Source of the DNA: a virus
IMG/VR virus record: IMGVR_UViG_3300035438_000445
Coordinates: 1-32,412 of that record
DNA length: 32,412 nucleotides
Strand: one strand, 5' to 3'
Position 1 is the first letter of the stretch. Every line of letters begins with the position of its first letter. Made by a program: the position numbers and the translations under genes. The notes below the pieces were generated by a model. It made no database searches. It saw nothing but the letters and a program-made list of their open reading frames with translations, and had not been told where the DNA came from. Of the stretch, positions 1,342-9,541 are shown one piece after another.

Positions 1342-2739
1342 TTAAAATGGTAATTCTCGATCGACTTCGTAAAATGATTTATTCGGCTGCAAATTAGTTT
1401 TTAATTCTTGAAATTGGTTTTGGCTTTCATTCATTCCGTGAAAACTGCTCATTGTAGAATTGTGCCGAAACCCTACGGAACCCGTCGCCCCTTGCCTATG
1501 CTTTTCAAATAGTAAAAATATTTCGTTCGTGTAAGGCGCGCCCGTTTCTTCGTTTTTTAGATCGTAGTATTCAGGTCTCCAAATAAACGCGACCGTGTCG
1601 GCGTCCTGTTCAATGGATCCCGATTCGCGCAAATGAGATAAAGACGGTTTTTTGTCGGTTGTTTCTTCGCATTTACGATTTAATTGAGCCAAAACAATAA
1701 ATGGAATGTTCAATTCCTTTTGCGCGGCTTTCAATGTGCGGGATATTTGCGAAACTTCCGCTTCCCTGTTACCGCCTTTAAAGCCCTCTAATGTCATTAA
1801 TTGCAAATAGTCGATAATTACCCAATTGCATTCATTTAAACGCGCGTGTCGTTTTATAATGCGTATTGCTTCATTTACCCCGCATCCAGCTTTATCATAA
1901 ATTTTGAAAGGTTTGTTTTCAACTATTCCGATTGTCTTTTCAAAATAGGTTAATTCTTCGGGGTTTAACGTGCCGTCCCTGAGTGCCGAAGATCGGATTC
2001 GCTCGTTTGAGTTTTGGAGAATTAAACGCTGGGTTAATTGCGATTGACTCATTTCGAGATTGAAATATATTCCGGGCTTTTGTGTTTGCATTCCGAAGAA
2101 AAGAGCTAAAGCGGTTTTTCCCATACTTGGACGCGCCCCGATTATAATTAATTCGTTTTGCCAGCCGCCTGTAAATTTATTTACTGATTCAATCCCCGTT
2201 TCCAATCCGCTCGTTTGTCCTGATTTTGCAAGTTCGGCGCGCCTGTAATATGCTTCGCGTTCGTTTGTTGTTAATTCGGGCATTTCAACAATTTTCTGCA
2301 GCTCGGAACCTTCCTCAGTTAGTTTGGTTAGGCGTTTAATCATTTCTTCGGCTATATCGCGACCGGGTTTCTTTTCGTGCAAACCTATTCCAACCTCATA
2401 ATAGATTTTAGTAATATTTCGCGTTATTAAGGCGTTATGCAGCGTTTCTATTAGTTCGGGTACATTCTCGTTATAAGTTACGTTTTGGCTCGTTGTAAGG
2501 GCTTCGCGGTATTCATCCATTGAAAAGGATTCCGAAGATTTCCACGCGTTCAAAAGTGAAACAGGATCGGGGCGTTTTCCTTCGTCATTTATTTTTTTTA
2601 TGAAATGGAATGCTTTTCGACAAAGTTCGTTTTCGAAGTGGTGCGGTCCTATTTGCGAAATTACCTCTTTGTAAATTTCATTCGGGCTTAAAAGGATTCC
2701 GATAAGCGTTTTTTCGATTTGATCGTTGGGGTTATTCAT
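1342..2739 (-). CDS. dnaB: DnaB-type replicative DNA helicase
   Basis: At 465 residues the protein has the full bacterial/phage DnaB layout. The N-terminal helical domain (about 1-105) begins with the typical IEKTLIGILL segment. A linker follows, then a RecA-like ATPase domain with Walker A GARPSMGKTA at 201-210, NLEMS at 227-231 and Walker B VIIDYLQLM at 307-315. A sensor-like region AQLNRKCE is at 351-358, LRESGSIEQDAD at 370-381, and the arginine-finger-like HRQGATG at 414-420. It should unwind DNA as a hexamer at the phage replication fork. The start overlaps the 3' end of the winged-helix gene by 8 bases, which fits initiator-helicase coupling. No helicase loader or primase is visible in the window. 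Confidence 0.97.
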   Translation of the reverse strand: MNNPNDQIEKTLIGILLSPNEIYKEVISQIGPHHFENELCRKAFHFIKKINDEGKRPDPVSLLNAWKSSESFSMDEYREALTTSQNVTYNENVPELIETLHNALITRNITKIYYEVGIGLHEKKPGRDIAEEMIKRLTKLTEEGSELQKIVEMPELTTNEREAYYRRAELAKSGQTSGLETGIESVNKFTGGWQNELIIIGARPSMGKTALALFFGMQTQKPGIYFNLEMSQSQLTQRLILQNSNERIRSSALRDGTLNPEELTYFEKTIGIVENKPFKIYDKAGCGVNEAIRIIKRHARLNECNWVIIDYLQLMTLEGFKGGNREAEVSQISRTLKAAQKELNIPFIVLAQLNRKCEETTDKKPSLSHLRESGSIEQDADTVAFIWRPEYYDLKNEETGAPYTNEIFLLFEKHRQGATGSVGFRHNSTMSSFHGMNESQNQFQELKTNLQPNKSFYEVDRELPF

Positions 2740-3460
2740 AATATATTTTAGATTTTGAAGGGGTTTTAATTTCGTATTTGCCAGCGTTTAAAGTATTTCG
2801 AATCCATTGCTGCAATTTATTTTGAATTCCAAAATTCCTTTGATGGTTTAATTCTATTCCGCCGTCCTTGTGCGGGGTTGAATAATAGTTAATGAAGTCC
2901 TTATAAAGAATTTCAGGGTAACCGCTATTCGGGTGTTCTTCCTTAAATTTATTTATTCGCTCCGTAAATTCTTCGGCGGTTGCTTTCACGAACCAATTAT
3001 GCAAACCTAAATTAGAACTTTTTGAAACTTGATTTTCATTTTCTGCAAAAAAGTCTTTATTGTTTAGTAAGTCTATATCGTTTTGTAAAGTCTTATGAAT
3101 ACTAACTTTGTTTTCAACAATGCTTTCAACTTGCTTTTTCAATTGCTTTGAACTTGCTTTATCATTTGCTTTCAACATTTTTGATAAAGCGATTCGGGTG
3201 CAAGTGAACTGATTTTTTGACCTTTCAACAATTATTATTAACCCGTGTTCTTCCAGCTTATCAATAGTGTTTTTATACGTATTAAAAGCTCCTATTCCCA
3301 AATGATTCATAGCGTGAGTTGAAGTAATTGTAAACGATTCGCGCCACCCTAAAGAATTATTTATGTGAACTAAATAAAAATACATTGCGGTAATATTCGG
3401 GCTATTTTTTTCGCCGTTATTTTCCGCCCATTTCCAAAATCCGTTAAAGTATTCAAACAT
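2732..3460 (-). CDS. Winged-helix replication-initiator-like protein
   Basis: The N-terminal 85 residues have the pattern of the winged-helix domain found in phage replisome organisers of Bacteroidota. They start FWKWAENN, have the LVHINNSLGW segment, and end with IDKLEEHGLIIIVERS, which reads as a recognition helix followed by a wing. The middle (about 90-145) is a lysine-rich, probably flexible linker. The C-terminal part (YKDFINYYS at about 186-194, QWIRNTL near 220) resembles the helicase-interacting tail of DnaD-like proteins. Together with the overlapping dnaB-type gene downstream, this suggests a protein that recognises the origin and recruits the helicase. That role is inferred from domain order and neighbours, and I saw no iterons marking an origin. 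Confidence 0.75.
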   Translation of the reverse strand: MFEYFNGFWKWAENNGEKNSPNITAMYFYLVHINNSLGWRESFTITSTHAMNHLGIGAFNTYKNTIDKLEEHGLIIIVERSKNQFTCTRIALSKMLKANDKASSKQLKKQVESIVENKVSIHKTLQNDIDLLNNKDFFAENENQVSKSSNLGLHNWFVKATAEEFTERINKFKEEHPNSGYPEILYKDFINYYSTPHKDGGIELNHQRNFGIQNKLQQWIRNTLNAGKYEIKTPSKSKIYYE

Positions 3461-3461
3461 A

Positions 3462-4145
3462 TTAAAAAAGTTTTATTTGTGTTGAAGGTTTGAAACTTGC
3501 TTCATATTTTTTGTTTTCCCCTTTTGGATATTCTAAAATTTTATAGGGTAACATTTGAAGCATTATTTTTTTTTCTCTTTTGCTTCCTGTAAAAATAAAA
3601 TATCGGTGTTTTCTCGATCGTTCAATATAATATAATCGATCTCCGAATATTTCCCTTAGTGCTTCAATTCGATTCACTTTGCCACGAACTAAATCTTCAA
3701 TAGTTGAGTGATGGGCGTTTTCTAAACCTTTTACCGCTATATCCTTAAACTCTTTTGAAAGCCCCGTGTAAATCCAATTTGTCGCCTGATAAATATAACC
3801 ATTGTGATTTTTTGATGTGTCTGCATAACTTACAATTACAAGGGGTTTAGGCATTTTTTTTAAAGTGTTTGAAACAAAATAACTTAAAATGTTTTTTTCT
3901 AAACCTTCATTAATTACAAGGCGGTTTAATTCCATTAACTTAAATTCATTTTTCCATAAATTTCGAAGCGTGCTGGAAACAGGCGTTCCAAAAGTTACAA
4001 TCCCCTGAATGATTCCGTTTAAATCAAATATTCCAAAAGCGTATTCAATAGGCGGCATTCTACGGGCGTAATGTTTTTTTAAACACCACTCTTTGCACTC
4101 GAAATATTCAATGGATTTAATCGAATATTTTTGTTTTAATTCCAT
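3462..4145 (-). CDS. Mom-like DNA-modification protein (GNAT-like fold)
   Basis: The 227-residue protein shows the conserved layout of Mom-family proteins. FGIFDLNGIIQGIVTFG at 37-53 and ELNRLVI at 72-78 come first. The signature SYAD at 106-109 is followed by HNGYIYQATNW at 114-124, and a basic RKHRYFIF segment lies at 178-185. In phage Mu, Mom modifies adenines to methylcarbamoyl-adenine and protects phage DNA from restriction. A similar anti-restriction role is likely here but is inferred from the family. The leader RNA in front of this gene ends in an intrinsic terminator 7 bases before the start codon, so expression is probably conditional. The gene begins the replication run and is followed after two bases by the initiator-like gene. 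Confidence 0.82.
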   Translation of the reverse strand: MELKQKYSIKSIEYFECKEWCLKKHYARRMPPIEYAFGIFDLNGIIQGIVTFGTPVSSTLRNLWKNEFKLMELNRLVINEGLEKNILSYFVSNTLKKMPKPLVIVSYADTSKNHNGYIYQATNWIYTGLSKEFKDIAVKGLENAHHSTIEDLVRGKVNRIEALREIFGDRLYYIERSRKHRYFIFTGSKREKKIMLQMLPYKILEYPKGENKKYEASFKPSTQIKLF

Positions 4146-4150
4146 TTTTT

Positions 4151-4223
4151 CAAATAAAAAAGCCCGTTAAAAGCTGCGGTAGTAGCGAAACAGTTTTCCC
4201 GTTTCTCGCAGCCCTCAACGGGC
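4151..4223 (-). terminator. Terminator hairpin in the leader of the Mom-like gene
   Basis: The outer stem is GCCCGTT (minus, 4223-4217) with AACGGGC (4168-4162), followed by TTTTTTATTTG down to 4151. Two inner helices are nested: GCTGCG (4212-4207) with CGCAGC (4178-4173), and GAAAC (4205-4201) with GTTTC (4191-4187). The T-run ends only six bases upstream of the Mom-like ATG at 4145. Confidence 0.85.
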
Positions 4224-4261
4224 AAAATGTTTTTAGATCATTCGAGCTACTACCTTCGAAC
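4151..4261 (-). ncRNA. Candidate riboregulator or attenuator RNA upstream of the Mom-like gene
   Basis: The roughly 110-base transcript would start about 7 bases after the TATATTTG element. A first hairpin, TTCGA/TCGAA (4260-4256 with 4245-4241), presents the ten-base loop AGGTAGTAGC. Nine loop bases, GGTAGTAGC (4254-4246), are perfectly complementary to GCTACTACC (4186-4178). That segment lies unpaired on the 3' side of the following terminator hairpin, between its innermost helix and its middle helix. The result would be a loop-bulge pseudoknot, or a switch if the two folds compete. There is no ORF inside. Promoter, structured RNA, terminator and gene in this order resemble an attenuator, or the RNA part of type III toxin-antitoxin loci, but no toxin family is seen here. 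Confidence 0.65.
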
Positions 4262-4267
4262 GTTTTA

Positions 4268-4293
4268 CAAATATAACCTTTTTTCAATTACAA
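4268..4293 (-). promoter_or_regulatory. Candidate promoter of the leader RNA and Mom-like gene
   Basis: TATATTTG at 4275-4268 fits the -7 consensus TAnnTTTG. A TTG at 4293-4291 lies 15 bases upstream, shorter than the usual spacing, so the -33 part is uncertain. The element overlaps the 3' end of the upstream gene. Confidence 0.55.
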
Positions 4294-4550
4294 CCTTTCA
4301 CGCTGCAAATAATTTTCCCGTGAACTACTTTTGCGTTTTCGCATTTACCCGCTCGAATATCGTAATAGTTAAAATCGCATCCAATTTTCCACATTTGCTG
4401 AAAAGCGTAATCCCTTTCGAATAATTCACAAAACTGTTCGAAATCTAAATCCATTTCATCCAACATTACGAAAGGTTCGGTTTTATGCTTTGCTAAATAG
4501 TTTTCAAATTCCGCTTTCATCTTCGAATGTTTTTCTATAATATATTTCAC
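4284..4550 (-). CDS. Hypothetical early protein, 88 aa, cysteine-containing
   Basis: The N-terminal 60 residues are acidic and helical (MDLDFEQFCELFERD near 33-47). The C-terminal part has three cysteines, in GKCENAK and IICSVKGCN, which could bind a metal but are not spaced like a known finger. The start lies 47 bases inside the 3' end of the upstream gene, a longer overlap than usual here. An internal ATG at residue 11 (4520) reduces the overlap to 17 bases and may be the true start. No family was recognised. Confidence 0.6.
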   Translation of the reverse strand: MKYIIEKHSKMKAEFENYLAKHKTEPFVMLDEMDLDFEQFCELFERDYAFQQMWKIGCDFNYYDIRAGKCENAKVVHGKIICSVKGCN

Positions 4551-8238: not shown

Positions 8239-8504
8239 AGTTTTGCAATTTTCCACGCGTTAACCTTAGTGAAATACTTATCGTTATACTCGCGGCTTTC
8301 CAAATTAATCGAAACGCTTAATTTATCATTTAACTGAATCCCATTTAACAGGTTTATTTTATCCCCGAATAAAGTAATCGAAAGGGGTTTCGGATATTGC
8401 CCCTCCTGTTCAATTATAATATTTTGGCTTGACCATTCCCCGCCGCCGTTTTTTTGTCCCGATTCAATCGGTAAAATTTTGATTAAAGTTCCTTGAATTT
8501 CCAT
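8235..8504 (-). CDS. DUF3127-like OB-fold protein (single-strand-binding type)
   Basis: The protein is 89 residues with five strands of an OB fold: IQGTLIKILPI at 3-13, WSSQNIIIEQ near 24-33, YPKPLSITLFGDKINLL near 37-53, KLSVSINLESREYNDKYFTKVNAWKI at the end. The SREY and AWKI signatures fit DUF3127, a Bacteroidota family thought to bind single-stranded DNA. It likely serves as the phage SSB in replication and in RecT-mediated annealing. No acidic SSB tail is visible. Confidence 0.82.
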   Translation of the reverse strand: MEIQGTLIKILPIESGQKNGGGEWSSQNIIIEQEGQYPKPLSITLFGDKINLLNGIQLNDKLSVSINLESREYNDKYFTKVNAWKIAKL

Positions 8505-8506
8505 TT

Positions 8507-8908
8507 TTAGTTTGTTTTAGTTTTGAATTCGTAAATCGGTTTTTCTGTTTTCGTTTGAGTTGTTTTTTTTTGCTTGCCGTTATATTTGCGTTTATCTTCC
8601 AGCGTTTCGATTTTATCCAAAAGCTCATTATTTAATCGCTGAAACTTTGCAAGGATATTTTTTAAATAATCCACGTTTATAAATTGGTTTTGCATTTGAG
8701 CGCGTAAATCGGAAATCGTTTCCGCCTGTTCGCTAATAACAAAATTTAAGTGCGCGCGGTGTTTTTTCAATTCGGCATTTTCGAGAAAATAATTAGTTTC
8801 CATTTTTTGAAGTTTTGAATATTTGTTTTTTATATACTTGTTTTGAATCGCCTGAACTGCTATCGTAATTGCAGCCCCTGAATAGATTAAAAAATTAAAT
8901 ACTTCCAT
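8507..8908 (-). CDS. Membrane-anchored coiled-coil protein, 133 aa
   Basis: Residues 5-20 form one membrane span (NFLIYSGAAITIAVQAI). Residues about 28-105 are a long charged helix with heptad-like leucines (SKLQKMETNYFLENAELKK, LKNILAKFQRLNNELLDKIE). The end is lysine-rich. It is placed among early genes, so it is less likely to be a lysis spanin. The 3' part of the upstream repressor gene overlaps this start by 14 bases. The role is unknown. Confidence 0.7.
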   Translation of the reverse strand: MEVFNFLIYSGAAITIAVQAIQNKYIKNKYSKLQKMETNYFLENAELKKHRAHLNFVISEQAETISDLRAQMQNQFINVDYLKNILAKFQRLNNELLDKIETLEDKRKYNGKQKKTTQTKTEKPIYEFKTKTN

Positions 8909-9107: not shown

Positions 9108-9541
9108 ATTTCATTATCCTTTCTCATTTGATAAAACCTATCGGGATCGGGTTCGTCATTTTCGTTGGTTTCCGCTTCCAGCTCCAAAATGATTTTTTCG
9201 ATTTCATTTAAACTATCGCTGGAAAGCAAATAGGTTATATTTCTGTTTCGATAAACAACGGAACCAAATTCAAATTCGATTGAATCGGGATAATTCATTA
9301 AGCCGGGAAAAAACTCATAGGAATAATAAACCGTAATCATTCGCCCCTGAAATATTATACTTTTGTTTTTCATTTTTAATTTTTGTTTTCGTTTTAATTC
9401 GTTTGAAATGCGAACGTTTAATGTTCCAACGGGAACGCAATATTTTTTTGAAATGGAATCGACTGTTTCGTTTCCGTGCTTCCTGAAAAAGTATTTAACC
9501 GCTTCATTTAGCTTTTTAACATCGTATTTAATTGGATTCAT
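9104..9541 (-). CDS. Hypothetical protein with N-terminal helix-turn-helix, 145 aa
   Basis: Residues 18-45 read as a helix-turn-helix (ETVDSISKKYCVPVGTLNVR), resembling resolvase-type or sigma-like HTH. The following half is beta-rich (SIIFQGRMITVYYSYEFFPG, IEFEFGSVVYRNRNITYLL) and ends with an acidic tail rich in D and E. It could be a second DNA-binding regulator. It shares four bases with the XRE gene downstream, and its own start lies inside the end of the 58-residue gene. Confidence 0.65.
   Translation of the reverse strand: MNPIKYDVKKLNEAVKYFFRKHGNETVDSISKKYCVPVGTLNVRISNELKRKQKLKMKNKSIIFQGRMITVYYSYEFFPGLMNYPDSIEFEFGSVVYRNRNITYLLSSDSLNEIEKIILELEAETNENDEPDPDRFYQMRKDNEI

Follow-up and report, generated by a model that had tools for sequence, protein, structure and literature searches.

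The antisense RNAs that set plasmid copy number (ColE1 RNAI/II, the IncB/IncL-M pseudoknots) act through loop-loop contacts, and the phi29 pRNA, about 110-170 nt long, carries two complementary loops that pair between molecules and are said to covary between phages. In P4, the CI RNA pairs with seqA and seqC, the sequences flanking it, and terminates the transcription of that phage's replication operon (PMC4825925). In phage Mu, Com is described as a zinc-finger protein that activates translation of mom (PMC6483171). Here we set beside these systems a structured RNA encoded in IMG/VR record IMGVR_UViG_3300035438_000445, a viral DNA of 32,412 nt that was analysed over its positions 1 to 32,412 (hereafter, the window).

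The element lies on the minus strand, as do all features described below, and is flanked by a small gene (4284-4550) and a Mom-like DNA modification gene (3462-4145; Pfam PF25680, 2.4e-31; phrog_1384, 1.6e-52). Its -7 box, TATATTTG (4268-4275), is of the TAnnTTTG type, i.e., the published consensus of Bacteroidota promoters (PMC6847099, PMC9723704), and as its position implies initiation near 4263, one base ahead of hairpin 1, this hairpin would form the very 5' end of the transcript. The spacing from the -7 box, the structure and a covariance model (R1, matching the window at 4156-4271 with 117.7 bits) together define a predicted RNA of ~108 nt that runs from the start site to the end of a U tract (4156-4263). 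Hairpin 1 (4239-4262) has a 7-bp stem, C4262-A4256 with T4245-G4239, and holds in its loop a nine-base sequence, GGTAGTAGC (4246-4254), that we call code A. An A-rich single-stranded linker (4224-4238), whose A columns are near-invariant in the alignment of relatives, separates it from terminator hairpin 2 (4162-4223; GCCCGTT...AACGGGC), composed of an outer stem (GCCC.../...GGGC), a middle stem (CTGCG/CGCAG) and an inner stem, with code B, GCTACTACC (4178-4186), unpaired in a bulge on its 3' side. The U tract TTTTTT (4156-4161) follows, so that a GC-rich stem and U tract are placed between promoter and gene, as in an intrinsic terminator or attenuator. The ATG of the Mom-like gene (4145) is found 10 bases past the end of the T-run, where the sequence-only reading, an earlier inspection of this DNA without database searches, had counted six. 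The fold energy is -43.5 kcal/mol, against -26.0 +/- 3.5 for shuffled sequences (z = -5.05), none of the 200 shuffles being as good.

Relatives of this RNA, all of them from metagenomic viral contigs, were collected in three scans. The exact 9-mer pair was present in 18 viral contigs, at least ten of which carry the same RNA. Because that scan had fixed the 9-mer, a second one left it free and used only the flanking stems of the terminator and the U tract as anchors, which yielded 50 loci; hairpin 1 is intact in 49 of these (the remaining one, L034, ends at the contig edge), and in every one of the 49 the loop is complementary to its own bulge over 8 or 9 consecutive bases, despite differing letters. 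The third scan, anchored on hairpin 1 with the interior of the terminator free, returned 25 contigs, all 25 of them family members with matching codes and one (L137) having a new code along with a compensatory stem change. The proposal of a structured RNA with loop-bulge pairing and a terminator, made from the window alone, is thus upheld by its relatives.

Aligning 46 distinct RNAs showed only Watson-Crick pairs (100%) in the 8-bp helix between loop and bulge. Double-sided changes occur at four of its eight pairs (in 26, 10, 27 and 15 sequences), the other four being invariant, with no one-sided change and no G-U pair anywhere in the helix; the result is 11 different 8-letter codes, all within the frame GTNNNANC. 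The stems behave similarly, with 95% of cells paired and double-sided changes at 5/7 pairs in hairpin 1, and 96.9% of cells paired and double-sided changes at 7 of the 17 outer- and middle-stem pairs in hairpin 2. The U tract comprises 5-8 T in 45/46 relatives, and 35 of the 46 RNAs have TAnnTTTG at -19 to -21 relative to the loop, most others having TAnnTTTA there. When the 3' partners of the whole structure were slid, pairing fell from 94% to 30-44%. Chance performs poorly elsewhere too: a pattern search of 85k cellular genomes (one per species, 257 Gb) gave only 20 chance matches, with complementarity of at most 7 bases, and 7 or more complementary bases upstream were seen in just 4 of 80 unrelated phage terminators. 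As the sequence-only reading had supposed, the nine-base match between loop and bulge is not due to chance, since the pairing survives sequence change, and the compensatory changes between GGTAGTAGC and GCTACTACC on which the sequence-only reading had staked its case are present in the homologues. The element is a genuine RNA family with a pseudoknot and a promoter-terminator layout, spread through many uncultured phages that probably infect Bacteroidota; that its function lies in the RNA of the minus strand follows from the promoter, the U tract and the G-U pairs conserved in the terminator.

The code changes quickly. Between close pairs of sequences, divergence in its columns is about 5-6 times that in the remaining RNA; L036 and L039 differ at only 1 of 93 other sites, yet at four of the eight code sites. 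Each large phage contig carries one strong copy of the RNA, and searches of 22 phage contigs on either strand for further copies of their own code returned none above chance (6 against 6.3 expected; 7 against 6.7), which leaves B, in the same RNA or in another molecule of it, as the sole partner of A. That the code changes fast and is nevertheless always matched suggests that it matters whether RNA molecules from the same type of phage can pair. Phages found together in a sample showed no avoidance of each other's codes, 2 of 14 pairs being of the same code where 2.5 were expected. One contig (L055) also harbors, 1 kb upstream of its first copy, a second and diverged RNA (9353-9466, plus strand) of the same layout, likewise with TATATTTG and a terminator and with a different code, TGGAATC/GATTCCA.

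What the RNA precedes is best described as a replication module. In the window it is followed by the Mom-like gene, then by a putative replication-initiator-type gene (2732-3460, cluster c0) and by a gene for a DnaB-like replicative helicase (1342-2739, cluster c4; PF03796, 8.1e-73). Of 22 large contigs, 19 have c0 at a distance of 0-1.3 kb downstream of the RNA and 14 have DnaB within about 2 kb; the three contigs without c0 encode an SF2 helicase together with a 716-aa protein instead. The first gene, by contrast, varies, and may encode proteins of methylation or nuclease type (Mom, C5- and N4/N6-type DNA methyltransferases, HNH nuclease, PD-(D/E)XK-like and other nucleases), small proteins without assigned function, an SF2 helicase or DUF6291 proteins. 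Given this constancy of c0 and DnaB, we place the RNA at the head of the replication module and regard Mom as one of several inserted genes. With the exception of the diverged second copy in L055, the ATG of the first gene stands 2-19 nt past the U tract, a gap that leaves no space for another promoter, and the replication genes should therefore need read-through of the terminator.

The interval between the RNA and the initiator looks like a cargo hotspot (2732-4145 in the window and the corresponding positions in L039, L047, L065, L037 and L059), where Mom, C5 and N4/N6 DNA methyltransferases and HNH and PD-(D/E)XK-like nucleases take turns. The initiator-type proteins (2732-3460 in the window and the first genes of L012, L069 and L051) look modular as well, combining a similar C-terminal end with differing N-terminal parts; members of c0 bear either DUF6291 or another N-terminal part, and several relatives among the first genes have DUF6291. 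Such modularity suggests an exchange of origin specificity.

It had been proposed that the leader controls the DNA-modification gene, and one part of this stands, i.e., that the downstream genes can be reached only through the terminator; the tie to Mom does not, as homologous RNAs precede many genes. Most RNAs of the family are not placed before mom, and the expectation that phages with Mom-like genes share the RNA failed at eight Mom-relative loci in other contigs, none of which has it in front of Mom. We therefore rejected a linkage to Mom, given that the neighbours vary, that relatives of Mom occur without the RNA and that the constant partners are an initiator-type gene and a helicase. 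In a related phage (contig G018) the Mom-like gene is situated about 4.5 kb downstream, away from the RNA, which also supports their independence. For the same reason a ligand-binding riboswitch, or a sensor of phage state, governing the Mom gene is barely credible. Although in the window a structured leader with a terminator does stand directly before Mom, in relatives Mom gives way to unrelated genes too diverse to form one regulon, no conserved aptamer-like core is present in the family, the transcript begins with hairpin 1 itself and so has no space for an aptamer, and Rfam holds no match. The riboswitch reading, with its ligand, is largely refuted by the neighbouring genes.

Searches for a described counterpart were negative throughout. 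Rfam 15 gave no match at gathering score in the window or in 13 related loci, and a permissive scan of the window region gave none either; the covariance model of the C4 antisense RNA (RF01695) matched 0/8 contigs at E <= 1. The covariance model of the family, run on 395 Bacteroidota genomes under strict filters that may miss diverged copies, found no RNA, several family RNAs had no blastn match in cultured phages, and a literature search recovered no earlier description of this RNA.

Other layouts share the nine-base pair. The exact 9-mer led to four GC-rich contigs (L016, L018, L019 and L026) with three hairpins, A (GGTAGTAGC), B (GCTACTACC) and C (GGTAGTAGC again), in which a -10-like box comes just before A, hairpin B is followed by no terminator, and hairpin C holds a Shine-Dalgarno GAGG and then the start codon of a replication-type gene. 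Their stems covary (6 pairs, matched by 0/500 shuffles), whereas the pairing of the 9-mers is argued from position and identity, because the 9-mer is invariant in the four contigs; two of the four encode a tyrosine integrase. No code variants of this class were detected, other matches being chance or tRNA genes. The three copies and their hairpins lie at 8440-8560 (plus strand) in L016, the third extending over the ribosome-binding site; the window contig has no third copy. In two further contigs recovered through the exact 9-mer, L020 and L021, A is within or next to hairpin 1 and B occupies a terminator loop, before replication-type genes. In a phage of another type (L017, near 1758-1816, minus strand), GGTAGTAGC is in a hairpin loop and GCTACTACC is the terminator loop, with an extra hairpin between. 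A supposed larger class of plain-loop terminators resembling L020 and L021 was discarded, as its 80 matches are chance terminators. The GC-rich, L020 and L021 versions are grouped with the window family by layout and 9-mer, a grouping that does not imply common descent. Shine-Dalgarno sequences are absent in Bacteroidota (PMC6847099), which would explain the use of a terminator there and the masking of the Shine-Dalgarno in other hosts.

On balance we consider, at a probability of roughly 0.55, that the leader RNA is a conditional transcription terminator heading the replication operon and switched by homotypic A-B pairing. Transcription would initiate on the opening base of hairpin 1 and as a rule end at hairpin 2, giving a stable RNA of ~108 nt, and the operon (cargo such as Mom where present, followed by the initiator-type gene and DnaB) would be made only when the polymerase reads through. 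The switch would be the pairing of the hairpin 1 loop (code A) with the terminator bulge (code B): formed inside the nascent RNA, it would set termination one way, while RNAs of the same code that had built up in previous rounds or came from a sister phage would compete for A or B and produce the opposite setting. The phage could thereby meter or restrict its own replication, with cross-talk limited to phages of the same code. In favour of this count the loop-bulge covariation, the replication context, the missing promoter space, the fast code and the lack of other code targets; against it, the pseudoknot and the full terminator are not mutually exclusive on paper. We infer the read-through control, its direction and the action between RNA molecules from sequence comparison. 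An alternative 5' antiterminator hairpin, GCCC/GGGC, was dropped for want of covariation.

The main rival is a free-standing small RNA of the phage, acting in trans or as an RNA-RNA multimer and possibly self-assembling, in which case its place before the replication genes would reflect conserved gene order and not control in cis. An own promoter and terminator, the single strong copy per phage contig, a downstream gene that is freely exchanged, a sole code partner sitting in the same RNA and strict covariation with changing letters, as expected of a self-assembling RNA, all agree with it. However, the constant position at the head of replication genes, a start codon too close to the U tract to leave promoter room and the GC-rich version, whose hairpin B has no terminator behind it and whose ribosome-binding site contains the code, point towards the operon, and we regard a free-standing RNA as possible but rather on the unlikely side. 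At the level of DNA, the two 9-mers form an inverted repeat, no G-U interrupts the code helix and the element adjoins initiator-type genes, so that a protein-bound repeat or a replication-origin structure might be imagined. Nevertheless, the other stems retain conserved G-U pairs, which in DNA or when read from the opposite strand would fail to match, a U tract is present, the promoter comes exactly before hairpin 1 and the code letters vary freely, unlike those of a protein site, all of which makes such an element very improbable.

A further alternative would be an RNA of superinfection immunity or replicon incompatibility in the manner of P4 CI or P1 C4, whereby the RNA of a resident phage would pair with an incoming leader of the same code and stop the replication operon. 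The seqA/seqC order of P4 CI (PMC4825925) corresponds to the A-B-C order of the GC-rich phages, half of which have an integrase, and fast code change is what specificity groups would be expected to show. Yet neither integrase nor resolvase, i.e., the sign of a temperate element as in P4 CI-type leaders, was identified in any Bacteroidota-type contig, the window included, so that a role in prophage immunity is unsupported in these phages; moreover, no copy turned up in the 85k genomes (by pattern) or the 395 Bacteroidota genomes (by model), and codes do not exclude one another within samples. We consider this reading doubtful. More tentatively than the conditional terminator itself, one may imagine that a rapidly changing, self-complementary identity code lets replicating phages identify RNA from phages like themselves and gate the replication operon accordingly, through a terminator in Bacteroidota devoid of Shine-Dalgarno sequences and by masking the ribosome-binding site in hosts that use them. 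If true, this would be an RNA-based self/non-self system for phage replication, and it raises the question of whether virulent phages meter or defend their replication via RNA self-recognition. In any case, a previously uncatalogued and strongly covarying RNA family is present in phages of a major bacterial phylum, at the decision point of DNA replication.

Among the known systems, P4 CI with seqA and seqC (and also P1 C4 and Gifsy IsrK) is alike in being the leader of a replication operon in which adjacent hairpins hold a short sequence and its complement, and in P4 this pairing is linked to early transcription termination, in the A-B-C order shared with the GC-rich relatives (PMC4825925). 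That P4-type layout before replication genes was seen in L016, L018, L019 and L026, whereas the Bacteroidota phages have A and B only, no integrase, and a code that changes rapidly under strict pairing. The window family also differs in that its B lies inside the intrinsic terminator itself, and it shows no sequence or Rfam similarity to P4 CI or P1 C4, the C4 family RF01695 being absent. As for phage Mu, a Mom-like gene does follow an RNA hairpin here, but no com gene was identified next to the Mom of the window, and the Com/mom analogy is inapplicable because this RNA is tied to replication genes and not to Mom. The phi29 pRNA differs in its four-letter loops, unrelated structure and packaging function, while the present family adjoins replication genes and ends in a terminator. 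Plasmid antisense RNAs are alike in their loop complementarity near a replication initiator and in drawing specificity from a few loop letters, and unlike in that both partners here are on one strand of one RNA, with no antisense transcript needed. We view the likeness to the P4, P1 and phi29 systems as a functional analogy. A contact that is always matched, but changes faster than the rest of its RNA, suggests selection for specificity, of a kind so far seen mainly in plasmid incompatibility and prophage immunity.
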